DNA of 64,000 nucleotides. Source: Gongronella butleri. Lineage: Eukaryota > Mucoromycota > Mucoromycetes > Mucorales > Cunninghamellaceae. Below, piece by piece: positions 2,029 to 36,358 of this stretch. Both the position numbers and the translations under genes were made by a program. Each line of letters begins with the position of its first letter. The stretch's first letter is position 1. The stretch lies in the NCBI GenBank assembly GCA_025201375.1, contig JAIWZP010000004.1, positions 744,001-808,000 on the forward strand. Direction: 5' to 3'. Below the pieces are notes generated by a model. The model did not search any database and was not told the origin of the DNA. It worked only from the letters and a program-made list of their open reading frames with translations.

Positions 2029-3362
2029 CAGTGACCGGACAAAAAAAATGTCCGCCCTGACTTTTTTTGGGCACCGCAGCCATTTTGACCAATTTATAAA
2101 ATTGCCCGCCAGGCGCCGCCCAATGCCCCTTTCTTTTTTTTTTTTGTGAAAACATGGCTCTATCGACCACGCAGAAGGCTCAACTCGTCGCACTTCGCTA
2201 CCACGGTTGTACTACTGCTCAATTAGCAGCTCAATTCAGCGTGTCCGAGCGATCTGTCAGAAGAATGGTGAAAGAATACGCAGATCGCGGCTACTACGGT
2301 CGCAAGGAAGGCTCAGGGCGCCCGCAAAAGCTTGCAGACGTGGACCTACGACGCTTGCGACGCCTTGTACTCAACGAACGACGCGCGACGCTTGACCAGA
2401 TTCGCGACATGTCTGACATGAGTGTGTCGAGTCGTACCATTCGACGTCGTCTGCATGAAATGGGCATACACTCACGTATTGCCAAGAGGAAGCCCTTTGT
2501 TTCGACTGCACAGGCCGCAAAACGACTTGCTTTTGCTAGGAAACACGCAACGTGGACGGTGGACAAGTGGAAAAAAGTGCTGTTTACCGATGAGTCCTCG
2601 TTCGAAATCGGCAAGAACTCTCGTCGCATCCGTGCCTGGCGCACAGCTGCCGAAGCAGACCATCCGGACACCCTCGCCCCCACGTTTAAGAGCGGACGTA
2701 CGTCGCAAATGGTGTGGGGAGGTATTCATCAGCACGGAAAAAAGACAGAGCTCGCGCTTTTCGAGAAGCACGGGCCCAATGACCGCAGCACAAGGTCGAC
2801 TGCGGAAGACTATGTGCGTGTCGTGTATGAGGGACCTTTGAAGAAGTTTTTTGGGCGCAAAAGGACCATCATACTCATGGAAGATGGTGCCATGATCCAC
2901 CGTGCAAATGTGTCCAAACAATGGATTGCGAAAAAGAAGATTAAGAAGATGGAATGGCCTGCGAGCTCGCCGGACCTCAATCCAATCGAAAATCTTTGGA
3001 AAAAGATGAAGGCGCGCGTTCAAGATCGATTTCACGAGGGAATGGAGTTGGAGGAGTTTCGAGAGGTTCTAAAGGAGGTGTGGAACGAGTTTGAGCCCAA
3101 AGACTGGAACAAGCTCATCGAGTCGATGCCCAGGAGGATGAAGGCAGTCATCATGAGCAAGGGCAAGCCCACCCGGTGGTGATCCCTCAATTACCCGCAG
3201 CAACTGCCCGTTTTTTTTATGACTTATGTTTTTATGATATTAAAGGACCAATGTATGAAATATGAGAGATCCAAATGCTATACTCGATGAAAAACGCATA
3301 AAAAATAAAAGACGCGTAAAAAAATTAAAGTTAGGACGGACATTTTTTTTGTCCTGTCACTG
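2029..3362 (+). mobile_element. Tc1/mariner-family DNA transposon, apparently intact
   Basis: The 1,334-bp element has terminal inverted repeats of about 33 bp beginning CAGTGAC; the right end read in reverse differs from the left by about three bases (CAGTGACCGGAC versus CAGTGACAGGAC). Both ends are flanked by TA (2027-2028 and 3363-3364), the target duplicated by this superfamily. Between the ends lies one uninterrupted transposase frame (2154-3182). The size, ends and TA flanks are those of a complete Tc1-like element. The small end mismatch and the open frame suggest a fairly recent, possibly still functional copy. It sits in TACAGTA-rich DNA just beyond dispersed repeat A. Confidence 0.93.
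2154..3182 (+). CDS. Tc1-like transposase (DD34E)
   Basis: This 342-residue intronless protein would cut and paste the element it lies in. Residues 1-110 contain two helix-turn-helix-like segments (QFSVSERSVRRMVKEY and MSVSSRTIRRRLHEMG) typical of the paired-like DNA-binding part. The catalytic triad is visible: D146 in FTDESSF, D244 in MEDGAMIHRA and E279 in SPDLNPIENLW. There are 34 residues between D244 and E279, giving the DD34E spacing of Tc1-type enzymes. The GRPQ tract near residue 55 fits the usual hinge motif between the two DNA-binding parts. Length is normal for the family (about 340) and there is no internal stop or frameshift. The start at 2154 is the first ATG after the left inverted repeat. 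Unlike its neighbours it has no intron, as expected for a transposon gene. Confidence 0.93.
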   Translation: MALSTTQKAQLVALRYHGCTTAQLAAQFSVSERSVRRMVKEYADRGYYGRKEGSGRPQKLADVDLRRLRRLVLNERRATLDQIRDMSDMSVSSRTIRRRLHEMGIHSRIAKRKPFVSTAQAAKRLAFARKHATWTVDKWKKVLFTDESSFEIGKNSRRIRAWRTAAEADHPDTLAPTFKSGRTSQMVWGGIHQHGKKTELALFEKHGPNDRSTRSTAEDYVRVVYEGPLKKFFGRKRTIILMEDGAMIHRANVSKQWIAKKKIKKMEWPASSPDLNPIENLWKKMKARVQDRFHEGMELEEFREVLKEVWNEFEPKDWNKLIESMPRRMKAVIMSKGKPTRW

Positions 3363-3479
3363 TACTGTACTGTACAGTACTGTACAGTTGTACTGTAATC
3401 TCTCTGTACAGTATTATTGATCAATAAATAAACTAGGATCGAAAAAATCCCTCGCTCGTGGCCAACTCACCGACAACGT

Positions 3480-6020
3480 GAGGCGATATCGCCAAACCAC
3501 AAGCGCCTTTACCACATTTGACCACCGATTCATTTGAGGTGCCTCATCACAGCATGCGGAGGAGGTGCTCAGCTAGGGATGTTATTAAATCGAGAATCTC
3601 GCTCGAAAATCTCGAGGGTTCGAGACGAGATCGAGACGATCGAGACGACCTGAATCTCGCTCGTCTCGATCGACAAGAAAGTAAAATCTCGCTCGTCTCG
3701 CTCGAATCTCGAACAAAAAAAAATTAGGTTAGGTGTAATGTTTCATCATCTTGTATTTTAGATTAGTGGTGTGGTGCAATGGGGCCTAGCTAGGATTTTC
3801 TGTTCATAAATCGAGAATTGGGCAGCTGCATTTTTGACTTTAATCTCTTGCTGAGCGCCCAGTAGTAATGCACTGAGATGAACTAACGCAATGCCCCTGG
3901 ATGTAAAATTTGATTTGGAATCGAATGGTGTTACTTTCGAGCCTTGCTCGTGCCTACCTAAGATTTTGCGCAATAAAGTATGAATTGGTCACCCCAATTA
4001 AAGCCCGCCCAGAGCCATTTTTCGCCCCTTTTTTTTTTGCTGTTCGTCTTTTTTTTTCGTGCATCTGATCGTGTACAGGGAAAAACGGCACATTGCCACA
4101 CAAAAAAAAAAAAGAAAAAAAGGGCGAGAGAGAGAAAGGCTATAAGTAAAAGTGGGTCTTTACAGAACGCTGTCAGTCTACCAATGGCGCCGATTCTCGT
4201 CTCAAGTGAGAAGTTTCAAGCCTGAGCACTAAAAAAACAGAGAATTCAATTAAAACAAATGCTCTCATTCTCCTCTGTCAAGCAGCGTTTCTCCTTTTCA
4301 TCTCCATTCTACAGTTGTACCTTGTACAGCATGCACATGCACGATCAGATGCACGAAAAAAAAAGACGAACAGCAAAAAAAAAGGGGCGAAAAATGGCTC
4401 TGGGCGGGCTTTAATTGGGGTGACCAATTCATACTTTATTGCGCAAAATCTTAGGTAGGCCCTTGCTCGTTTAATAAAAAAAACACCTGATAATCGCACT
4501 TTTACCGCCGCCAAAGGCCAAAATCGCGTAAAATCGCGTAAAGTGCGATTATCTCGAAATTTTATTAAGTTAACGGACACCGTGTGAGAACTTTATTCGA
4601 TTCTAAATCAAATTTTACATCTGGTTACGTGAACAGAATTACGAATTGAGCGATTTTTGAAGCACTTGTATTAGAGCAAACTTCAAAGACAGGGCGAAAT
4701 CGGCGCAAATCGCTTAAGTGCTCCAAATCCAGCAACCTGACATGCATTTCAGACTTCACCATGCGATTTAGAATCATCAATTACAGTACCCCTAGAACGT
4801 CTGTCAAAGCATCGCAAATGCAAAGCCAAGTGCATTCAAAGTGCCAATTCGATTGCCCAATTCTCGATTTATCAACAGAAAATCCTATCTAGGCGTGCAA
4901 TGGGAAAAAGCTTTGTCTTGGCACTCAGGATGTGAAAGGTTCAACTCTTGTCTTTGTGTCGACTTTTTTGGGTGGATTTTTTCACCCCACCAGACAAAGT
5001 TTTGAAGAAAAATGCTCGAGTTTTGTCATGTGACATTCTCGAATCTCGCTCGAATCTCGCTCGATCTCGACTAGGAGAATCTCGATCGAGATCGAGATGA
5101 CCCAAAATTTTGTCGAGACGAGACGAGACAAGGTGAATCTCGTCTCGCTCGCTCGAATTAACAACCCTATCTAACAGCATTTACGCCTATGATATGAAAC
5201 TGGCGCTTTCTCAGAAACTCGTTCATATGGTCCCAAATTTGGATCAGTTGATGGTAGACTCATTTCTTCAACGTTGTCAAGTTTTTTCGCGAATCGGATC
5301 ACTCAGTCGCGAGAAAGATCGAGATTCGTGTTTGCTAGTGAAAACCCAACGCAAAACAATATTTTAGGCATTTCTCTCGATGAGGCTGATCATCTAGCTC
5401 CAAATTTAGGTCAATGGATACTTGACTCGAAAATCCAACAATGTCAAGTTTTTTTTCCCAAATCGGATCACTCAGTCCTGAGAAAATGCATTTTTCATAA
5501 AATCAGGGCCGTACCGGAATCAAAACGACCCCTCAAGGGTAACTCGCCGAAAACTTGAAGCGCTATTCCCAAACCACAAGCGCTTTTACCGCGTTTGACC
5601 GCTGATTCATTTGAGGTAACTTACGCGTCGGTGCGCTCAGCCGTTGTCGCTGTACGAGACAAAATACTGCTGATCTTACCCCCTTTACGCCTACGTATGA
5701 AACTGGCACTTTCTCAGAAACTCGCTCATCTGGTACCAAATTTGGACCAGTTGATGGTAGACCCAGTTCTTCATTGTTGTTAAATTTTTTCGCGAATCGG
5801 ATCACTCTGTCGCGAGCAAGCTCGAGATTCGTGTTTGCTAGTGAAAACCAGCGCCAAATAATATTTTACGCGTTCCTCCCGATGAGCTTGAGTGCTTGAC
5901 CATCTGGCGCCAAATTTAGACCAGTGGATACTCGAATCAAACCTTCGATTATTCCATTTTTTTTTCGCAAATCGGATCACTCGGCCCTGAGAAATCTCGA
6001 GATTCGTGTTTGCTAGTACG
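3480..6020 (+). repeat. Two-unit tandem repeat (repeat C), first unit interrupted
   Basis: Unit 1 consists of 3480-3573 plus about 5180-5550 and is split by the fold-back element. Unit 2 is about 5560-6020. Both contain AAACCACAAGCGC, GATTCATTTGAGGT, GAAACTGGC(G/A)CTTTCTCAG, TTTTTTCGCGAATCGGATCA and GAGATTCGTGTTTGCTAGT. Fragments of the same family occur near 29596-29735 and 60248-60310. No shared open frame is visible. Confidence 0.75.
3574..5169. mobile_element. Fold-back (long inverted repeat) element with hAT-like ends
   Basis: The two ends are inverted copies: TAGGGATGTTATTAAATCGAG-like at the left and, read in reverse, TAGGGTTGTTAATTCGAG at the right. The palindrome continues inward in matched blocks: 3574-3725 with 5036-5169 (TCGAGA/TCTCGCTCGA repeats), 3775-3830 with 4847-4905, 3895-3925 with 4595-4625, and 3948-4078 with 4338-4459. 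A loop of about 260 bp lies between. No transposase is encoded, so it is non-autonomous. Ends starting TAGGG resemble the hAT superfamily, but I find no clean 8-bp target duplication, so the family assignment is an inference. Confidence 0.7.
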
Positions 6021-7180
6021 CGTTTTTCGTGTTTCGGGATGAACTACAGTAATGCTTGGATCAGGGGGGAGCAAGAGCCACTACGACTTTGATATTTCGG
6101 GGGCGTGTATGTTCAAGAAAAGCGGGTAGACGTCAACGAAAGGGTTGTAGTGAAATCCCCCCAAAAAAGCCGATTTTCAGCAATGCAATGTTGAACACTG
6201 CGATGCATGAGTGGATGGCCTGGAAAACTGGTTGATTAGGCCAATTCGTGGCGTCTTTTTTTCAGTACAGTATCCGTCTGCTGAAAGCAGCGAAGGGACA
6301 GACGATAGCGTGTTTTTTTCAGTGCAGAGGTTTTGAGAGAATTTGTCCAGTGACAAAGGGATGAAAAGCCGAAAATCTGGGCATCTCGAAAGTGACATTT
6401 CTTTCTCGGCATCCTTGCAGCCTAGAAGAAAGCGGCAAAAATGGTCGCCAATGGTGCACTTTTTACCGAGTAGCAAACGCGGCCACGCGAGGAAAAAGCC
6501 GTTTGCGGCCAACAATTTGTGCTGCGGGCTAAGCAGAGGTCAGAGCGCCAATGAGAAGTCTTGGCCCCTGATGATGTCATGCCCAGACAGGCACGGTCGC
6601 ACATGGGCTGCAACGGGGCCAATGACGCATCCAAATCAGGGGCCGGACTTGGCTTTCTTGCTTGGTTTCTTTCTTCGTCCACTTCCGCGGCCGCCACAAT
6701 GAATGAGGCTCGCCGCCACAAGAGACGGCAAAGCGTTCATGTTTGCCTGGATGTGAAAAATACACGACACCGAGACGTGTGCAGAAATGACCACCGGTCG
6801 GCCAACTCTAAACCCAACAAGATTTCGCACAACGACGTCTTGGAAATCTGCGAAACGGCCAAAAGCGCGGAGCCAAGCGCGGCCAAAAGAAAAAAAAAAA
6901 CCTTTGGGCATTGAGAAGGATGAGTAAGTTGCCAAAGCAACACGTCAAATCAAAAAGACGCTGTACAGATCATCGTTTTTCTCCTGAATGTTCCATGCTG
7001 AAACGCATTGCGTTTTTTTACGAGCAGCCTGCGTTCTATTTTTATTTTTTTTTTTCCTTGTGCACGGAATTGAGCGAGGTCTTGGCAGGGAAACAAGCGG
7101 ATGGCACGGGTGTCACCTGAATCATGGCCAATCAGGACGCACCCCGGCACATTTTGAAAATCCGGCATGAAATCGAAGAT

Positions 7181-22555: not shown

Positions 22556-23260
22556 TTACAACGCGAGCGCAAGTGCCGCGACGGACGACAGGGCCATGAC
22601 GACGGCACCCATCTCAAGAGTCGCGCCAGCGCTGGTGGTGGTGGTGTTGGAGGTGGACGAGGTGCTGTTGCCAAGATTGGTCTTTGAGCCATCGGCATTG
22701 ATACAGGCAGACGCGTTGAAGCTAGTGGGCGTCGTAAGCAAGACAACATCCGTGCACTGTTTTGAAAAAAAAAAAAGAGGGCGTCAATTTCATTGATTCA
22801 CTTTTTATTCAATCTTTGTTTTTCTGATTATTTTTTTCGTTTTTACCTGGTACAGCGTGCCATCGCCGGCATTGTAGACGGCCTGGAGGGTGCCGACGGA
22901 GCCATTGGTAGCGGCGGCCAGGGAGCCAAAGTTGACGGCCCAGCAGCTCTGCATGGGGTAGCTAACGCTGCCCGAGCCGACGAGGGTGGCATTGTTAAAG
23001 GCATCGACGGCAGGATTGTTGCCAGGCACAAAGTACACCTTGTACGAGTAGGACACATGCTCAGAATTGACCTCCAAGAAGCCATTGGTCAAAGGGAACT
23101 GGTTGCGCGACGACGACACCGAGTTGAACCCACCGCAAGGCGCCGTGGGCTCTGTGTCCTCTGAAAAGCCACGCGCAGGAGGGTATGTCAATTGGTAATG
23201 GCCCAGCACGCTCTGGCACAAGAGACCCAACACGGCAAAACACAAGAAAACACGAAACAT
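22556..23260 (-). CDS. BIM1: Secreted GPI-anchored LPMO-like copper protein (X325/Bim1 family)
   Basis: Exons (minus): 22847-23260 and 22556-22756, giving 204 residues. A signal peptide (1-20, ending in SVLG) is predicted to leave histidine 21 as the new N-terminus, HYQLTYPPARGFSEDTEPTA. A free N-terminal His is half of the copper 'histidine brace'; H68 in NSEHVSYSYK is the likely second brace ligand. The YPPxRGF and APCGGFN motifs are typical of the X325/Bim1 family. Cysteines occur at 42, in MQSCWAVNF, in CTDVVLL and in SACIN. The tail is Ser/Thr/Asn-rich and ends in a hydrophobic helix (VVMALSSVAALALAL), a GPI-anchor signal. X325 proteins bind copper but do not cut polysaccharide; Cryptococcus Bim1 helps Ctr1 import copper when it is scarce. 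The gene is transcribed away from a metal reductase next to two Ctr genes, which strongly supports a copper-uptake role. Confidence 0.9.
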
Positions 23261-23931
23261 GGCAATTTGCACGCGCAACAAGGAAAAAAAACGCAGAAAA
23301 AAAAAAAAAGAAACAAAGAATGAAAAAAGAGAAAAAAAAGGGAAAGCGTTTTTTATAGCTCGCTTGGAGCGGACGGGGAAAAAAAGCCTACCCCTTGTAA
23401 CATCGCAAAGCGCCAAAAAAAAAAAAAAAAAAAAGAGGGTGAGATCTTTTCGCTGCTGCACGCGCTTCCGATTGGCCTGCTGCCAAACCTTGTTTTTCCA
23501 TTGTGCGACAATGCAAAGAAAACAACGCGAACGGGGGCGCGACGCGCAAAACAATGGGCACATTGCTGGCGGATAAATTGATGAATCTTGGGAATCTTGC
23601 AAAATGACGAAATCGATGGATGCACAAACCTTGGACCTCTCCGCTTTTTTTTTCTTGGCTCCCATGTTCCCTCTTTTCGAGTAGGAGGTCCCCTGTTGCC
23701 ATTGCCCGCCCGCTCCACTCTCGCTGCCCTTGAGTTTGCTCCCCCCATTTTGTATCCATTGGCGAGATCTTTTCGCTGGCAAAGACCTCCTGATTGGGCC
23801 GATGCTTGGATTTAAAACACCGCACCGTCAAAAGAAAAAGGCAACCTTGTGCCTTTTTTCATTTTCTTTCCTTTCTAATTTTTGTTTTTTGTTTTCAACG
23901 CCCTGTCTCTCCTTTCATTTTATTTATCAGG
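23261..23931. promoter_or_regulatory. Divergent promoter of BIM1-like and FRE-like genes
   Basis: The 671-bp gap separates the two start codons. A TATA box for BIM1 (TATAAAA on the minus strand, 23351-23357) lies about 91-97 bp from its ATG. The 15-mer GAGATCTTTTCGCTG occurs twice, at 23441-23455 and 23764-23778. TTTGCTC at 23735-23741 resembles the yeast Mac1 copper element, and the 12-mer TTGCTCCCCCCA (23736-23747) recurs upstream of Ctr-a (26376-26387). TTTTCGCTG also occurs upstream of Ctr-b (about 27884-27892). These are candidate copper-control sites; their function is inferred. Confidence 0.5.
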
Positions 23932-25720
23932 ATGGATATGGACATGGATATGTCGGGCACACCGCCCAACATCAATGAGTGGGCGACACAGGCTCTGCTT
24001 GGGGTGATGGCCGGTGTGCTTTGCCTGCTTGTTGTCCGCCACGCCCTGCTTCGCCTTGCTTCGTCGTCGCCTCCTTGGTCTCGCCGACTTGCACCCCTTT
24101 TACGGCTCGACCGCGCTATTGTCAACCGGTGCTCATACCAGGTGACCACTTTTTTACCGCCTGTTGGTGGACTTCTTGTTGCCGTTGTTATGGTTAGCAC
24201 GTTGTTGCCACTTTTGCTCGTTGCCACGGATCTGCAGCTCAACTCGAACCGAGCGGGTTTCCTGACGGTGTCGCTCGTGCCATTTTTGCTTGGATCGACG
24301 GGCAAATATTCCGCATTGCAGCTGTTGACAGGGATGTCTGCGCGCCAGCTCAATTGGTTCCACCGATTCCTCGGCTATTGCATGATCATCCTTGCGACGG
24401 TGCACATGGCATGCATGATCACGGTGTGGGCGCGATTTCCGGCGTTTTTGACGTCTCAATTGCAGGCGACCAAAGTGCAATATGGTCTTGCTGGCTATGG
24501 ATGTCTTTGTGTGGTGATTCTCGGCAGCCTGTACCCTGTGCGTGTGTACAAGTACGAAATCTTCCTTGGCACGCATTTATGTGCGTTTGGGTTCCTTGGC
24601 GCCATCTCGGTTCACACGCCATACGCCATGCGTTACTTCTTGGTCGGCTTGCTCTGCTATGTGCTCAATGTGCTTGCCTCTTGGTTTGTGCAGAATCGCA
24701 TGGCGCATGCGCGCGTGCATGTCCTCAATGGTGCGACGCGTCTGAGGCTACGGACAGCAAGCCCCATCCAGCATCACCCTGGACAACACGTGTATTTGTG
24801 CATTCCGCGCCTTTCTTGCTTCCAATGGCATCCATTCACCATTTGCAACATCAGCGCCAATGATACCCTCATCGAGGTTTACGCGACGGTGCGCGGCGAC
24901 TTCACGCGCGCCCTGTACAATGCGGCGGCCAGCGATAGCAAGCAAGATGACGACGAAAACGACTGGTTGGTCATGGTGATGGGCCCCGTTGGCCGCCATT
25001 GGGCCACAACCACGCCCGAGCACATGCTCACCCATCAACACACTATTGTCCTCGCCAATGGCGGCGCAGGCGTCACCTTTGGCATCCGCCTTTTGCGCAA
25101 TCTCATGGAAACACTCCAAAACAACGAAAAAATCGGCATCCGCACACACACCATCTATTTTTCGTGGAGCGCACGCCACGCACGCGAGTTCTCGTGGTTC
25201 CGCGCCGAGTTACAACAGCACCAAGCAGATTTGGCCGCGATGCGACACGCGTCAGACCGCGTCCCCGCCCTTGAGATCTTGTTCCACTACACAGGCGACG
25301 CGGATGACACCGCCGCCATCGAGAGCGGCATCGTCGACGCTGCCATCGCAGACAATGCCGTCGACGAATCCCTCACTCGCGAAAAATCTGATCTCATCTC
25401 CTCGGAAGAACGTACACTCAGCGCTACACCCTTGCGCGTCGTGCAAAATCGCATCAATCCCGCCGACTACCTGTCTCATCTCGACGCCAATGCTTCCCTC
25501 GGCCTCTTTGGTAAGAAGAAAAGAAAAAAAGAAAGAACGCAAAAAAAAAGCAAAAAAACGCGAAATACTTTTTTTTTTTGTGTCTGACTCTTTCTTTTCT
25601 TTTCTTTTTCGTATAGTGTGCGGCCCCCCTGGCTTCAATCGTGCCTTTAAGAACAAGGTCGCTGCTCTGGGCAACAGCAAATCGAGCCAAGTCACTCTCT
25701 ACTGCGAAGACTTTGAATAG
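23932..25720 (+). CDS. FRE-type ferric/cupric reductase
   Basis: Exons: 23932-25510 and 25617-25720, giving 560 residues. The ferric reductase transmembrane domain has two His pairs for two hemes: H144/H158 (13 apart, in WFHRFLGYCMIILATVH) and H215/H228 (12 apart). The FAD site is HPFTI (300-304), preceded by HHPGQHVYLCIP. The NADPH site has GGAGVTFG (377-384) and the C-terminal VCGPPGF (527-533), which spans the intron. The enzyme moves electrons from NADPH across the plasma membrane to reduce Fe(III) or Cu(II). It begins MDMDMDMSGTPP, a Met-rich start like that of the Ctr-b ectodomain. With a BIM1-like gene upstream and two Ctr genes downstream, cupric reduction to feed Ctr import is likely. 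AATAAA lies at 25819-25824. Somewhat shorter than yeast Fre1 (686), lacking its long N-terminal extension. Confidence 0.93.
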
Positions 25721-26507
25721 TCAGGCGTTGCTCACGTCTTTTCTCCAATTTTTGTTCCATACTATGATATCATTTGCATTCCCCCCATCCATCCTTGCCA
25801 ATTGGCTTCATTTTCACTAATAAAAATGACGTGTCTTTTTACTCGTAATTCGCATTTTTTTTTCTTTCGATCTTTCTCGGAAAAGACGGTCGCGATGCGC
25901 GGAGATTAGTCATTGCGCAGGGCAAGTGCCCATACAGAGCAAGTGGTGCGTGGGTGTTTCTTTGCGGCTACTCAAAAGCATTTTGTTGCGCCAGCACAGG
26001 CCGTGACCCTTGCGCACCCGGGGGTTCCCTTTTTTTATACAATAAAAAAGCTGATGGGGGGGGGGAAGATGCGAAAACAAGGTGCCGACGCGTTGGTTCC
26101 AGTGCGTGGCAAGATTCATTATCGAAAGACTACGCAGGCAGAACGAAAAAGAAAGTAAAAAAAATAAAATAAAAATAAATAAGAGCCACTTGCGCGATTT
26201 TGCTGCATCACGGCAAGATGGCGGGGTGGGGGGAGTGGAGCAAGGGTTCATGCAAACATGATCAGATGCAGGTACACAGTCAGACGTTTCACGTTAGCTT
26301 GCCATGATCGTCCCTTTCCCGCGCAACACCGATCCGAGACGTTTTTGAGAGATTATCGCTGCACCAATCATTCGATTGCTCCCCCCAATTTGTGGAAAGA
26401 AAAAAAAAAAAGTCAGCACAGCGGCCGCAATTCAGGTTCCTTTCTTTCCTTCTTTTTGCCACCAGTCGCTTTTTTTTTTTTTTTGTCGTTTTCTCGTTTC
26501 CGTCACC
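25721..26507 (+). promoter_or_regulatory. FRE 3' flank and Ctr-a upstream region
   Basis: The region includes the FRE polyadenylation signal (25819-25824). About 120 bp before the Ctr-a ATG is TTGCTCCCCCCA (26376-26387), the same 12-mer as in the FRE promoter. AAAAGCTGA at about 26047 fits the loose fission-yeast copper-element consensus. No clear TATA box and no coding exon are visible. Confidence 0.4.
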
Positions 26508-27102
26508 ATGAGCAGCCACGATATGAGCAGCATGAACATGGGCACATTTCACTGGTCATCGTCTGGTGACGCCTTTTGGCTGAACAGCTTTGTGCCGCAA
26601 AATGAACCGGCATACATTGGCGCGTGCATTGGCTTGTTTGTCTTTGCCATTGCGAGCCGCGGCATCCTTGCACTTGAGGTTTATTTTATCGCCTGGCGCT
26701 CGCGCAGATACGCTGATCACAGGGAGGCTGTCCTGGCCTTGGTAAGTACACGAAAAAGAACTGGCAAATCGCGATTAGGTTGCTGACAACAACGCTTTTT
26801 ATTGATTTTTTTCTTAGAAAAAGGACGATGACAGGAGTTCGACATGCTCCGAGGGAGTCACGTACCCAACGCAGCAGGGTCTGCCGTCCGTGCCTCCCTT
26901 TTCGTGGGTCCACGATCCCGTGCGCAGTGTCTTGACGACACTGTCCGCATTTCTCAGCTACCTCTTGATGATGGTCGTCATGACAGGCAACGGCGGCTAC
27001 TTTTTGGTGATCATTGTCGGCATTTTTGTGGGCGAAATGGCCTTTGGCCGGTACAGATCTATTACGGGCATGCCCGGCATCCATGAAGGGCACAGCCACT
27101 AA
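26508..27102 (+). CDS. Ctr-family copper transporter, copy a
   Basis: Exons: 26508-26741 and 26818-27102, giving 172 residues. The ectodomain is short with a modest Met cluster (MSSHDMSSMNMGTFHW). Three membrane helices follow. The second carries MMVVM (M129 and M133, the MxxxM copper filter) and the third carries GIFVG (G146/G150, the GxxxG packing motif). The C-terminus ends HEGHSH, a possible copper-handover tail. Ctr proteins form trimers that import Cu(I). The downstream neighbour is a close paralogue (Ctr-b) with the same intron position, so the two arose by tandem duplication. AATAAA lies at 27216-27221. Confidence 0.95.
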
Positions 27103-27989
27103 GGCATGGCCCCCTTTTTTGGTTTTTTTTCTTCTTTTCTTCCGCTCGATACCTCTGTATATGTAATTTTTTACTTTTCTGCACTGTATATCCTCACTGC
27201 CCAGATGGGCATGCCAATAAAATGCACGTTAGAAAAACATCATCACGTCGTCAATTGGACTTTTGCAGGGATCAGACGCGACTAGCATGAATTCCATCGA
27301 GCATGACCACGTGACATGGTTCCACAGCGCCCAATGAGCTCCCCTGCGTCTCCCTCGCTCACTCTGTGCTGCATTGGGTCGCGTGCTATCGCTGCAACGT
27401 GGCGTAAATGCAAAAAAAAAAAAGGAGGGAAGCGACGAATTGAAGATAAAAAGGAGACCAAAGAAAGCTCCATCCTTTTTTCTAGCGCGATCAGACACGA
27501 CCGGTTGCCCATACCAGGGTAAAAGACGCGATGGTTCGGAATGAAGCGCGACATGTGAGAGAAAAAGCCTGGGCCCTGGTCGCTTTGACCCGTTTGTCAC
27601 GCAAGTTCTGACGTACGGAGAAGCAGCCTGTGCAACAGACACGTACTGGGGCATCAGATCACGAAAAAAAGTGAAACTTAAAGGAACATGACCCAAGACG
27701 ACGGTGTAAACAGCAAAAAGGCGCGCGTCATGATTTTTTTTTCCAATTGTTCCACCGGAAGCTCCAAGGCGGGTGCCATCATGCGCAAAATTCACGGCTC
27801 CGATAGATGAGACCCTGATGAGAACTTTTCGCTACCTGGCAGCCAATGAGCACCGCGACCACGGCCTCAGGCACATCTCCCCTTTTTTCGCTGCATATAA
27901 ATAAGCGAACAAAAAAAAAAAAAAAGGTCATCACTTCCATCATTCTCCACTCATTTCCTCTCCTTGAGTCTCTTTTTTTTTTTATCACA
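27103..27989 (+). promoter_or_regulatory. Region between the two Ctr genes
   Basis: The polyadenylation signal of Ctr-a is at 27216-27221. A TATAAATA box at 27896-27903 lies 87-94 bp before the Ctr-b ATG, and CTTTTTTCGCTG just before it shares TTTTCGCTG with the BIM1/FRE promoter. The remainder (27240-27840) holds no convincing exon. Confidence 0.5.
27896..27903 (+). promoter_or_regulatory. TATA box of Ctr-b
   Basis: TATAAATA lies 87-94 bp upstream of the ATG at 27990 and is followed by an A-rich then T-rich leader. The spacing matches other TATA-containing genes in the window. Confidence 0.7.
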
Positions 27990-28664
27990 ATGGACCATAG
28001 CCACCACCAAATGGATGACAGCATGAACATGGGCAACATGAGCGGCCATGACATGTCGGGCATGGATATGGATATGAGCATGTCGATGGGTACATTCCAT
28101 TGGTCATCATCGGGCGATGCATTTTGGCTGGACAGCTTCGTGCCAAAGACGGAGGGTGCCTACATTGGTGCCTGCATTGGCCTCTTTGTGTTCACCATTG
28201 TCACGCGCGCACTGCTCGCATTGGAAGTCTATTTTATTGCGTGGCGCGAAGGCAAGCTCACCACCGATGCACATGCCGTGGCCACCAATATCATGGTAAG
28301 ATAATTCAACGCCACAAGGCCGAAAAAAAAAAACCATTCCTAATAAACGCGCCTTTTCTTTTTATCCTGTGCCTAGGTCAAGGACGAAGGGCCGTCGTCA
28401 GATCACAGCTCCGAGGCACTGACGTACCCTGTGCAGCGCAATGTGCCTGCGGTGCCGCCATTCTCGTGGATCAATGACCCTGCACGCAGCCTGTTGACCA
28501 CGCTGTCGTCGTTTTTAAGCTATTTGCTTATGATGGTCGTGATGACTGGCAATGGAGGCTACTTTATCGTTGTCATTGCCGGCATTTTTGTGGGCGAGGT
28601 CGCCTTTGGCCGCTACAGATCCATTGGTGGCCCAGCCGCCGGCAGCGGGCACCACGATCACTGA
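27990..28664 (+). CDS. Ctr-family copper transporter, copy b (Met-rich ectodomain)
   Basis: Exons: 27990-28295 and 28377-28664, giving 197 residues. The N-terminal ectodomain is strongly His/Met-rich (HSHHQMDDSMNMGNM, then SGHDMSGMDMDMSMSMGTFHW), giving several Mets motifs that bind Cu(I) outside the cell. The second helix has MMVVM (M154/M158), the third GIFVG (G171/G175), and the tail ends GSGHHDH. The membrane part is nearly the same as in Ctr-a, but the ectodomain is about 22 residues longer and the loop between the first two helices differs. This suggests division of labour, with Ctr-b as the high-affinity scavenger. AATAAA lies at 28862-28867. Confidence 0.96.
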
Positions 28665-29125
28665 AAAGTGTGCTTTGGCCTCCTTAAAAATATCGCCATC
28701 CCCCCTTTTCCAAATACCATCCTTCCATTTGCCCTCCACAATGTTTTCCCTTAAACCCTCCCATTGCATGCATCCCCACTCCCATCTTTTTTATTTATAC
28801 ATTTTCTGCAACTCAACCCCTCTCTATCTCTTTATGCCTCCTTTTTCGCGATGTAAACTATAATAAACCACTGCACAATTGACAAAAACAAACAAAAAGA
28901 TTTGGAGGCACGGCCAAGATAGCGCGTCCAGTGAGGATGTCTTGATCCATAATGTCAGAGCAAACAATAAAAAGAAGTAATGGCAGCACAAAAAAAAAGA
29001 TTGCACATTCACGTCAATTCGGGCTCGGATTCATTTTAACAAAGACTCACGTTCGCCATTCTCTTTTTCTTCTGCTGGCTTTTGAATTAACCCCGGCTCA
29101 TAATTCTCTTTTATCGTTGTTTTTT

Positions 29126-29163
<38 letters not shown>

Positions 29164-29939
29164 AGCGCCGAAAATAGGTATAGGTGCCCATTCATGGTGA
29201 CACCAAGATTATGCGTCCTCTCCAAGGCAAGCGCGCTCCGGTTTCAATCACCGCTCGGCGCGTCACTTTGCATGGGGCGGGCGAGCAGTACCTGCTGTGT
29301 GGTTTGTCAGGAAGGCAACGAGCAGACGCGCGAATCGCACTATCATATCATACTGTACATTGCCAAGCCGCCCGTCTCTCTCTGGGTCGCTCCAGCTTCC
29401 TTTTTCTCCAGTCATCACTCTCCTAATTTTTTTATTAAATTGTCTTCTGTTGTTGCCCGTCGTGGTACCAAAATGAACCCATTTTATTGGGCGCATCCTC
29501 CGAATCTTGCTCATTCGGTCCTAGCCACCCTAGGTCCTACTGTATATTTGAGCTATCATAGAGGATGTTACTGTACCGGTAAACACAAAACTCCAACGAT
29601 GTCAATTTTTTTCAGAAATCGAATCACGCACTCAGTCCTGAGAAAATGCATTTTGCATAATTTCAGAGCCAAAACAGGATCAAGAGTTCAAGACGACCCC
29701 ACAATGCTACTGTAACTCGCCGAGAACTTGACATCCGCGAACCGGGTGTCCTTTTTTTACGTATACAGTATGATACTTACAGTAGTTATAATTTTTAAGG
29801 AAATATTCCAATACAGTAAGATGAAACCTACGGCAGGATGCCTGTACTGTATTTGGATGTTTCGATCCAGATGAATGATCCATTGCGACTTGTTGATGGT
29901 GGCTTACGTATGATGATATTGCAGGTCGACAGTCAACGC

Positions 29940-30790
29940 TTCGCGTTCGCTACGCGACGGAATCGAATTGCTTGGATGTTTCTGATGATCTGCCATCTGC
30001 GTCGTTAAACAACCGTTGTTCGAAGTGATCGCCCAACTTCTCAAGCAGCATTGAACGGAAAGCTTGGCTGTCCTGGACGTGCAGTGCGTACAGTAGCACC
30101 GTGCCGAATTCTTCAATACGTAAATTCGAAAGGGTTTTGTGTTGTCCGTATCATACGACCACATGTTGTATTTGCCTGCTTTACAGAGCTTGATTTAATA
30201 AGAAAAGCCTAACAGACGCTTGGTCTGTCAACGAAAGAAAGCATAAGCGCGTCTTAAACGCGCTCAACGCGTCAATGCGAGTGCAAGCAGCGATCAAAGA
30301 ATTAAAATGCTGACTTGTTGCCGCAATTGGATCTTTCTCATGCCGCTCCTCTAAGCGGGCATTGCCCAATTGGGTAATGCTCCCGCTCTGCTCGTCACAA
30401 AAGCCCGCTGTCGGCTGGTCATCTCCTTTTACCGCTTTTTCATGCTTTTGGAAGAATGCGCATCTTCCTCCATCTCGGTCTCTGTACGCATCATCACATT
30501 GTCTCAGATGCTTAAGTAGAAACACACCCTCACGGTTTCATAGCCTGCTTTGATCACTAAGTGATCAATGCCTTTTGAGAAACAAAAGAAAAAAAAAAAA
30601 AGAAAAATGGCTTCTCCGTGCCAAACATTGCATGTTGGCACACACGACTCGAACCATTATGTTTCTCGCACTTGCGCACCAAGTGAAACAACACGGTGCT
30701 TGCAAGCATTGGCATGTTTGAATCCTCTGGGATGGGCATAACGTTTTGTTTGAGATCTGCGCGGCCATGTCTTGGTCTCACGCCCCTGTT
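29940..30790 (-). pseudogene. Decayed coding fragments of unknown origin
   Basis: Several short minus-strand stretches read like protein but are not joined by usable splice sites. One, near 30790-30610, includes MPIPEDSNMPMLASTVLFHL. A second, near 30340-30181, includes KDPIAATSQHFNSLIAACTR. A third, near 30140-29950, includes LRIEEFGTVLLYALHVQDSQ and EKLGDHFEQRLFND. Frames change between them and a stop precedes the third. I do not recognise the family. They could be exons of a dead host gene or a transposon relic. A further piece (31560-31680, SEDGKYNKQIAVKLALSDGD) may belong to the same set. Confidence 0.35.
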
Positions 30791-32442
30791 TCCTTATTCA
30801 GACGCCGCGACATCTTCATTTTACGCGTCTGCGCATCTAGCCTATCCGTCTAGGCATTTTTCATTTTTGTATAAATATCGAGATCTTTTCATTTTAATAA
30901 AAGACTTACTTCATTCTCGTTATTCTTAACGTCTCTATCTTTTTCACCCTTTCTTGCTCAAAAGCTACCCCATATTCTTCACCACACACCACCATGATGG
31001 CATTCAATCAATTCTTGCAAATATACCGGTATACCGGTATGATATGATATTGAGCAGAAAGATGCATGATGATGATGCTGATATGATGGTTGCCCGAGAA
31101 TAATTTTTTGTCACGGCCCAGCTCCGCAGCTCGCGTCGTCGAGTGGCAAAAGTGCGCAAAAAGCGCGTGAGCCGACGCGCTCGGAAGCTGGAACCATGGA
31201 CGCGTACTGTAGTGGCTGGCTGGCGCGTCAATGGCGCGTTAAAAAAAACGACACACGACAAAATCATACGTGCGTACTGTTGTAATTAATTATAATACCC
31301 GTCTAGCCAATGATGACGTGCAAGGCTCTCATCGGCATTGGCGACAAATTGAAAAAAAGAAACGGGAAGAAATAAAAGCAAAAACTTTTATTACAGTATT
31401 ACTGTATTTGCACGCTTGCAGAAGTCAATCAACAAACATTGGAAACAACAACATTGGATTAATTTTCAAATTCGATTATGATATCTCGACAACTGTACTG
31501 TTGTATATTACAGTATATATTACATACTGTATATCATAAAAACAATCCCTTTGCACTTCTTTAATATGTCAAATGCAGCTGCTGAATCATCTCCGTCGGA
31601 TAAAGCAAGTTTCACCGCGATCTGCTTGTTGTATTTGCCGTCCTCAGAGCATAAGCGATCAAGTTGTTTAGACGCGCAATGGCGCGTACCTTGTATTTTA
31701 TAACTAGTGTTGAAAAGAAAGGCAATTGCCGCACACGTCGCTCCGACGCTCCTTCCAAATCTGGGGTTTGATTCCCCGCTCTCGCTCAGGCCACTGTCGG
31801 GCCGTCATCCGCATCGCATTGTAATCATGATGCCCAAAATAAAGAATGCGCACCTTTATCATCCTTTCTGCTCTCACATTGAATTGTACGCGCTCATTAC
31901 GTGATGCATCCATCAATGCCCTTAATACAAATGATCCAGACATGCAGAGTCGTGGCTTGGCTATGACCAGCCACGAGCTCGGGCCAAGCATGGCAAAAAA
32001 TAGAATATAAAAAAAAAGTCGCGCGCCGCAGGCGCTGGTTTCACCGGCTCAATGGCCATGCCCTGATCAGCCCCGTGTGTATACATACTGTACAACAGTG
32101 TCAATGGCATTCAATGGATTGAAACAAACGCCCTTGCTTGATACCGATCCGAGGTCTTTTCACAATTGATGCAAAGCGGCAAATACTGTAATATTATGTT
32201 TTGCCTCAGACACGGAGAGTCTCGACAGCTCTCTCTTACAGTACAGCGTTAGTTGTTTCTCCGCATCTCACGTTCTGATACCATTGTCCTTTCACGTTTT
32301 GCATAAATAGAGAATCGTTTTACATTTCAATAAACCGTACTGTATCTGTTTGCGATTGTACCGGTATTTCTTGAGTCTTTTGTTTTCTTGTCACATTTCT
32401 CCACCCACCAATTTTACACTGCTGATCAAAATAATAATTGAT

Positions 32443-33317
32443 GGAGAAAATTCACTTTTTCAACAAATAAAATCTTTAATAATGGCGATTTGCTCGACAA
32501 CGGTCTAGACAATTCCCGAAATTTATTGCAGGTTTACTAACGAACAGGGGAGCAAAGCATCTAATGGAACAACTTGCAGTGCGCTAGCTTGGGTTTTATT
32601 AACTTTTTGCATCAGTCATTTCATGTCCAGGCTGCAGCTCACTCAGCGTATAAAATGTGCAAAAAAAAAATAAAAATTCCTTGCAATCCACCACCTACCG
32701 GTAAATTTGGAAGTGTCAAACCTTAATTTTTGCAAAAAATCTTGACCAAAGCAGGCAATTTTCTCAGTCGGTCGCCGTTTATGCGTCACTCTTTGGGCTT
32801 TTTTTCTTGCTTGCTTTGGGGGGGGGGGTGACTTGCCGTTTTGTCAGCCAATAGCAAATGGTCGGAGTTACCTGTTTGGGATGCATTGATCACTCGGAGT
32901 TCGAAGTTTCCCAAATTTGGCATTTGCTGAGATTGAAATGTGTGACCCCTGAGTGACCCCTGAATTTTTCAAAAGTGGTCGTGGCGCTTCGGCGGTTTAA
33001 GCTTTTTTGTTGCAAATTCTGCGTTGAATTCGATGCGGCAATTTTTGAGCGGGGTCAATCATGCTGATGGACAAATGAACGCAAAATAGTACAAATACAG
33101 ATGTAGAAGGTTTTTGACATTTTCGAGTGCACAAAAAAATCGGGCGGGTCCGCCGTCTTGATCTCTTGATGTCTTGAACACTGGGGGGCTATTATTACCG
33201 GTATACGACGTACAGTATGATACAAGTTTATGATATTTATGACATGACGCATTTTTCATTAGCGGGAAAGTAGGCTGTAAAAAAAATTGTGGAGGCACAG
33301 CAGGCCGGCAAAGTCTG
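32443..33317 (+). repeat. Dispersed repeat A, copy 2
   Basis: Same orientation as copy 1 at about 750-1705; see that entry for the shared blocks. This copy lacks one of the tandem GAGTGACCC units of copy 1, has a G run at 32819-32828, and carries its own TACAGTA/CCGGTATAC insert near 33198-33225. Confidence 0.75.
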
Positions 33318-34080
33318 AAAAACGCACTTTTTGGGTTTTAAATGTTGTATGATACAGTAAACGTTTTCGTGCAGTGTAGCGCGATGCTTCAGGGAGGCAG
33401 CGAAGAAATGATAGCACGCGTCCGTTTCTGCCCACCGAGATCGATACATGGATGGATCAAACGCTTTATTAATTTATTTGTGTGCATGCAAAAATGCAAA
33501 ACGGATGAAAATCGTGCTTTTGTGCATTTTATCGGGCACTTGCTGAGATGTTGTGTCGCTGAAATGTTGACCGATTTTTTTTCACGCCTGTGCAAGTTTA
33601 AATTTGTGAATATCATAAAATGTGCGGGCAGGTTCGCAGGCCGTGTTGAGCCAGCATTTCTGCTACTGTATTTCTATGAACTGCTGTATGATATATGATA
33701 CAGTACGTAATATAGTACTCGATTCTTTTCTGAGCGTCGCATCGGCTTGTATGATTGATGCATGTACGTATCATAATCGACAACAATACAGTATTGCCAT
33801 TACTGTAATACTGTAATACAGATATACAGTATTGTATTCAGTATACGTAGCGCGCTCCATAGTCCATACAGTATACAGTATTTGACGTCGTTGGCAGAGA
33901 TGATTGTCTGCCGCAGCAAGAATGGCAGCTGTGGAAGCGAGAAGAACGAAAAAAATACGCAAAAACTAGGCCGGGAGCTCTATGATACTGTATACTGTAT
34001 GATATCATACGTAATATCCACCAGTAGCTCATGTTTGACCGGCCCTGTTGCAGGATCATACTGTAAATATCATAGGCTTG
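33190..34080. repeat. TACAGTA/TACTGTA-rich island
   Basis: The 7-mer TACAGTA and its reverse complement TACTGTA, often within ATACAGTAT, GATACAGTA or TACTGTATGATA, recur many times in this stretch, for example at 33351-33358, 33663-33670 and the dense run at 33785-33850. Similar islands lie at 1500-1700, 3363-3415, 29540-29850 and 31390-31530. The flanking segments carry no genes. Confidence 0.6.
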
Positions 34081-34468
34081 GGATGTCATGTGGTAGTGAC
34101 GAAAAAAAATCAAAAGCTGCATGATAAAACGAATTATTTTGTTGGTTTTGGCTTGTTCGTTCCTACAACAGGGCATCAGTGAATTTGCAGGCTTAAATAA
34201 TTCTTTTGTGATGGCCGAGGTCGTGCTCTGAAGATATTGAATCGATTTCAAGAAAAAAAAAGCGCAAATGATTCCTCTGATCCCTTTTTTTTTTTTTTTT
34301 TTTTTGTACACATACTGCGGGCGACTGGTTGCCTGACCACCAGCTAGCGTAATGTACACTCCGAGACTCCGGGTTCTCAGTCAATGACGAAAGGCGATGG
34401 AGATTTGTCGGATGTGCCATTTAATCTGAGAGCGCTTACCTTTTTTAGACATTTCCCGCTTGAACATC

Positions 34469-34476
34469 TATAAAAT
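34469..34476 (+). promoter_or_regulatory. TATA box of the aminotransferase gene
   Basis: TATAAAAT starts 85 bp upstream of the ATG at 34554, with a T/C-rich leader in between. Confidence 0.65.
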
Positions 34477-34553
34477 CAACGCCTGGGTTTGCATTTCCGC
34501 TGCACATTTTTCTTCTCTCGCTCACTGTTGCTTCCTTTTTTTTATTCTTCGTC

Positions 34554-36358
<1,805 letters not shown>

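Follow-up and report, generated by a model that had tools for sequence, protein, structure and literature searches.

A candidate copper-uptake gene cluster of BIM1, metalloreductase and CTR genes in the mucoralean mould Gongronella butleri

The question raised by this locus is whether four neighbouring genes of Gongronella butleri, a mucoralean mould of soil, belong together as a gene cluster for the uptake of copper, and whether such a grouping has been described before. The window, i.e., the whole stretch of 64,000 nucleotides that was analysed, is carried by contig C45 (1,153,077 bp) of an assembly of 33 Mb in 110 contigs. It was found to contain, in this order, the genes of a BIM1/X325-like copper-binding protein (BIM1, minus strand), a FRE/NOX-type metalloreductase (FRE, plus strand) and two CTR copper transporters (CTR-A and CTR-B, plus strand), each in two exons. 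The span extends from 22556, the outer coding end of BIM1, to 28664, the outer coding end of CTR-B.

The four genes and their surroundings

The four-gene neighbourhood was confirmed as real. The models of BIM1, FRE and CTR-A were identical, residue for residue, to NCBI proteins of Gongronella butleri, and the gene identities and coordinates given in a first-pass annotation of the window were upheld by these models and by the Pfam matches. The same annotation had placed BIM1 and FRE divergently over one spacer, and their start codons were indeed found 671 bp apart (23261..23931), followed by spacers of 787 and 887 bp between the remaining genes. Nothing gene-like was noticed by eye among the short ORFs in the spacers between the four genes. 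Among the eight flanking ORFs scanned, the nearest on the left encodes a class II tRNA synthetase and the nearest on the right an aminotransferase, neither of which is copper-related. In the approximately 6 kb that separate the cluster from the aminotransferase gene (28700-34900), no gene-like ORF was noticed. Elsewhere in the window, a Tc1/mariner-like transposase ORF with HTH and DDE_3 domains (2154-3182) and an exon of a P-type cation ATPase (PF13246, PF00122; 56501-57859), approximately 28 kb from the cluster, were found.

The BIM1 gene (23260..22847 and 22756..22556, minus strand) encodes a protein of 204 aa, which was found to contain PF20238 with 92.8 bits against a cut-off of 27 (residues 20-160, profile positions 2-139 of 140); this was the one match to PF20238 in the whole genome. 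The residue His21 follows a hydrophobic leader and matches residue 1 of LaX325 in the sequence alignment as well as in the model, and a His was present in this column in all 16 aligned proteins, own included. The mature protein is therefore predicted to begin with His21 after cleavage of the leader, and the histidine N-terminus that had been proposed for it was borne out by alignment and model. The residues His68 and Asp141 fall opposite a His and an Asp in LaX325, which we take to be copper ligands of that protein; His68 was kept in 15/16 aligned proteins, own included, and the Asp stretch was absent from rows P0015 and P0016. The C-terminus was found to contain a Ser/Thr-rich stretch followed by a hydrophobic segment (190-204), which may be a GPI-anchor signal. 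In X325 proteins, the fourth copper site is reported to be filled by an Asp carboxylate, unlike in LPMOs (PMC10952591).

The FRE gene (23932..25510 and 25617..25720, plus strand) encodes a protein of 560 aa (NCBI P0017), which was found to contain the domains Ferric_reduct (PF01794, 70.1 bits), FAD_binding_8 (PF08022, 53.1 bits) and NAD_binding_6 (PF08030, 51.9 bits), all above their cut-offs of 28, 22 and 22.2, respectively. The residues His144/158 and His215/228 and the HPFT stretch at 300-303 were invariant in an alignment of 18 sequences, and GGAGVT and CGPP motifs were also found. The four His residues presumably form two haem-binding pairs, and the remaining motifs we take to be those for FAD and NADPH.

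The N-terminus of FRE is the Met-rich stretch MDMDMDMSG (23932-23958), which is similar to the Mets tail found in Ctr proteins. A hydropathy scan found five segments over the threshold within the first 300 residues and, together with a reading by eye, it would place the Met-rich tail outside the cell. A TP.N.N-like anchor after the tail was kept in 42 of the 53 FRE matches listed (P0017-P0069, own included), and 30 of these 42 anchored Mucorales FREs contained at least three Met residues ahead of the anchor; in seven of the 42, fewer than six residues precede the anchor, and these models may start too late. The FRE paralogue on contig C70 begins with MAVDTSYDENE and was found to be without the Met-rich motif. 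Titles and abstract openings of the papers listed for methionine-rich metalloreductases yielded no fungal FRE with such a tail.

The CTR-A gene (26508..26741 and 26818..27102, plus strand; 172 aa; NCBI P0073) and the CTR-B gene (27990..28295 and 28377..28664, plus strand; 197 aa) encode proteins matching PF04145 with 105.2 and 107.2 bits, respectively (cut-off 25.3). Both were found to contain MMVVM (MxxxM) and GIFVG (GxxxG), and their N-termini are Met-rich in CTR-A (MSSHDMSSMNM) and Met/His-rich in CTR-B (MDHSHHQMDDSMNM); we take these features to be Ctr-type motifs. The NCBI protein contained in CTR-B (P0070, 181 aa) begins at a later ATG, and the longer model, which adds 16 residues upstream, was preferred because several relatives also start with MDHS. 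The annotated start of P0070 is thus probably 16 residues too late (27990-28037). In a CTR tree of 26 rows, CTR-A, CTR-B and a Hesseltinella CTR grouped together, with the branching order among the three undecided.

Recurrence of the neighbourhood and the shared promoter repeat

In the whole genome, PF01794 was found in seven matches at six places and PF04145 in nine matches at six gene places. When loci were placed uniformly at random in 200,000 draws, the probability of BIM1 lying within 3 kb of one of the six FREs was 0.0012, and that of at least two of the six FREs lying within 3.5 kb of one of the six CTRs was 2e-5. Six copper-fist matches were also found in the genome, so that a regulator of Mac1/Cuf1 type is available.

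A second FRE-CTR tandem was found on contig C70 (L017, G000:C70:18001-27999, at approximately 3,420-7,023, minus strand), its genes lying approximately 1.1 kb apart. NCBI protein P0037 (747 aa, C70) contains both domains and was considered as a FRE-CTR fusion, which was rejected. The reductase of this tandem has its own stop approximately 1.1 kb ahead of the CTR start, and a gene-model error is therefore likely; P0037 is probably a merge of two models. On visual inspection, the unspliced end of this reductase (...SYAVSLYTESFQ) is similar to the conserved C-terminus of FREs, and the CTR end of P0037 also deviates from the plain reading of the DNA. By eye, the join used by P0037 could pass for an in-frame GT-AG intron, and a rare spliced FRE-CTR fusion may exist on C70.

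Linkage in relatives was judged from an identical bp size of the source contig of each protein, a procedure verified on the own genome, where P0001, P0017, P0070 and P0073 gave 1,153,077 (C45) and P0037 gave 145,432 (C70). The counts cover the best-scoring relatives listed, own genome included. BIM1 and FRE were found on a contig of the same size in 5/7 species having both among the matches listed, namely Gongronella, Hesseltinella (1,275,103 bp), Chlamydoabsidia (439,900 bp), Cunninghamella blakesleeana and C. echinulata (31,980 bp), and on different contigs in Absidia repens and Circinella (2/7). BIM1 and CTR were likewise matched in 5/7, the exceptions being Syncephalastrum and C. echinulata; for the latter, separate assemblies seem to have supplied the BIM1 and the CTR. 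For FRE and CTR, a match was found in 10/20 entries, comprising nine species (own included, with Halteromyces on a contig of 1,315,071 bp) and one 7,941-bp contig, and some of the ten misses may reflect different or fragmented assemblies. The conserved neighbourhood that the first-pass annotation had called for was thus recovered by way of size-matched contigs. As evidence for linkage, the short contigs are strong, namely that of 31,980 bp for BIM1 with FRE and that of 7,941 bp for FRE with CTR, and long shared contigs such as that of C. blakesleeana (9.1 Mb) are weak. Chlamydoabsidia padenii was found to contain two BIM1 proteins (P0005 and P0006) on different contigs, each size-matched to a CTR contig, which suggests that the BIM1-CTR neighbourhood is duplicated in this species.

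The BIM1-FRE spacer was found to contain two copies of GAGATCTTTTCGCTG, at 23441 and 23764, within an 18-bp repeat. Related sites in identical orientation were present upstream of CTR-A (GAGAGATTATCGCTG, 26347..26361, plus strand) and upstream of CTR-B (GAGAACTTTTCGCTA, 27820..27834, plus strand), both copies having weak statistical support. The degenerate pattern GAGANNTTWTCGCTR was found at six genomic sites, four of them in the cluster, against two sites for a reversed control pattern; the other two sites lie inside ORFs that by eye seem unrelated to copper, one of them kinase-like. The core TTWTCGCTR was found five times in the three intergenic regions, where 0.14 sites were expected, a count matched by 0/500 Markov shuffles, both patterns having been defined after the sites were seen.

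Since GAGANNTTWTCGCTR was fitted to the cluster sites, maximum tests were run. For 15-mers on both strands, 8/60 random window triplets and 37/60 shuffles equalled or exceeded the observed value. On the same strand, this was found in 34/60 random triplets for 9-mers, 4/60 for 10-mers, 4/60 for 12-mers and 3/60 for 15-mers. The support is thus borderline for one-strand 10-, 12- and 15-mers, and there is none for both-strand 15-mers or for 9-mers. Of the seven other CTR/FRE loci that were scanned (L017-L023), one contained the core, namely L023 with a single site, and it was absent from the second FRE-CTR locus and from the CTR on contig C24. The shared promoter element is a suggestive lead. The S. 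pombe Cuf1 consensus (three sites against 2.75 expected in the three intergenic regions) and TTTGCT[CG] (three sites against 1.88 expected) were dropped as evidence; we take both to be copper-factor sites of yeasts.

Comparison with known copper loci

A cluster that also includes the reductase had been thought undescribed. This claim fails because an adjacent trio of genes for a GPI-anchored protein, a copper transporter and a metalloreductase (Afu6g02800-02820) was reported in Aspergillus fumigatus in 2008 (PMC2481287). The three genes were jointly induced on contact with normal neutrophils and were jointly deleted, and the deletant was menadione-sensitive and grew undiminished on iron-limited medium; the available text of that paper was not found to contain a copper-starvation test of the deletant (PMC2481287). 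The A. fumigatus proteins XP_747797.1, XP_747796.1 and XP_747795.1 are given as homologues of BIM1/CBI1, CTR and FRE, respectively (PMC13208438), and ctrA2 is Afu6g02810 (PMC8425704). Because the accessions XP_747795-747797 are consecutive and ctrA2 is Afu6g02810, the GPI protein of the trio is very probably the BIM1 homologue.

The A. fumigatus trio (Afu6g02800-02810-02820, with CtrA2 at 02810) matches the Gongronella cluster in its functions and in physical adjacency. It belongs to a different phylum and, by locus number, follows the order BIM1-CTR-FRE with one CTR, whereas the Gongronella genes are ordered BIM1-FRE-CTR-CTR, the first two being divergent. In Gongronella, the grouping known from Aspergillus is present in a Mucoromycota variant. 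The literature listings consulted revealed no report of BIM1, FRE and CTR clustered in Mucoromycota, and what seems new is the occurrence of the cluster there in a different order of genes, with two CTRs, a Met-rich N-terminus of FRE and a weakly supported promoter repeat.

Partial groupings have been reported from other fungi. In Aspergillus nidulans, the CTR gene AnctrA lies beside the metalloreductase gene AnfreC with a shared promoter, and a CTR and a metalloreductase were found in tandem in 110/127 species screened; the available main text is without the words 'Bim1', 'Mucor' and 'Rhizopus' (PMC7705104). The divergent pairs ctr3/fre9 and fre12/ctr1b of Fusarium oxysporum are direct Mac1 targets under copper limitation, and 'Bim1' is absent from the available main text (PMC11563359). 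In these pairs FRE is divergent from CTR, whereas in Gongronella it is divergent from BIM1 and the CTRs lie downstream. In Pseudogymnoascus destructans, BLP2 (VC83_03095) and FRE (VC83_03096) bear consecutive numbers and are both up under copper withholding, whereas the locus numbers of CTR1a (VC83_00191) and CTR1b (VC83_04814) are far from them; no remark on the BLP2-FRE adjacency was found in the available texts (PMC12113139, PMC13208438). Cbi1/Bim1 of Cryptococcus neoformans is a GPI-anchored histidine-brace protein, as is predicted for the BIM1 of the cluster, and interacts with Ctr1; no statement on gene linkage was found in the available main text, from which 'adjacent' and 'divergent' are absent (PMC9258870).

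Proposed function and its alternatives

The locus is, with good confidence, a high-affinity copper-uptake gene cluster, and probably a functional one. This reading is based on the observed gene families, key residues, adjacency, single BIM1 match and recurrence in relatives by size-matched contigs. The putatively GPI-anchored BIM1 would bind Cu(II) at the cell surface by its histidine brace, FRE would pass electrons from cytosolic NADPH through FAD to two haems and so yield Cu(I) outside the membrane, and both CTR proteins would bring in Cu(I). A Mac1-driven reductase combined with Ctr is the standard functional idea (PMC11563359, PMC7705104), as is the assistance of Ctr1 by BIM1/Cbi1 (PMC9258870). 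Clustering and the shared divergent promoter of BIM1 and FRE would put the genes under the joint control of a single regulator of copper starvation, probably one of the copper-fist (Mac1/Cuf1) type. We infer copper as the substrate, the co-regulation, the GPI anchoring and the order of the hand-off.

FREs reduce iron too. It is improbable that this FRE serves mainly iron and that the genes lie together since reductive iron uptake needs copper for a multicopper ferroxidase. The FRE/NOX Pfam domains cannot separate copper from iron, and the A. fumigatus trio was discussed by its authors as one of iron/copper assimilation (PMC2481287), but the normal growth of the triple deletant on iron-limited medium in that report, together with the copper tracking of published Ctr-linked FREs in the texts available, argues for copper. 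BIM1 and the CTRs are copper proteins, and neither an iron permease nor a ferroxidase was found among the eight flanking ORFs scanned.

A role of BIM1 chiefly as a cell-wall or oxidative-stress factor, with copper import secondary, is quite improbable. The effect of Cryptococcus Cbi1 on the cell wall (PMC9258870) and the menadione sensitivity of the A. fumigatus deletant (PMC2481287) are consistent with it; however, purified Cbi1 was without the redox activity that most sugar-modifying enzymes have, had no recognizable polysaccharide-binding sites and acts in Ctr1-mediated uptake (PMC9258870), and the adjacency of CTR and FRE fits import. A chance adjacency without shared regulation is hardly credible, for although linkage is missing in 2/7 species for BIM1-FRE and in 10/20 entries for FRE-CTR among the matches listed, and the promoter-element statistics are weak, it is opposed by the probabilities under uniform placement, by the return of the neighbourhood on short contigs (32 kb and 7.9 kb) from other organisms and by the comparable Aspergillus trio (PMC2481287).

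Under the copper-uptake reading, the proteins might further act as one surface machine, in which BIM1 would hold Cu(II), FRE would reduce it in place and Cu(I) would pass from the Met-rich tail of FRE to that of CTR; this arrangement is tentative and rather doubtful. If true, it would account for BIM1, FRE and CTR occurring together both in Dikarya and in Mucoromycota, and for the way in which a protein that binds Cu(II) supplies a Cu(I) channel. The presence of the locus in Mucoromycota bears on whether the grouping is ancient or was assembled repeatedly, and a locus joining BIM1, the reductase and the CTRs makes the intervening reduction step directly testable in a soil mould.
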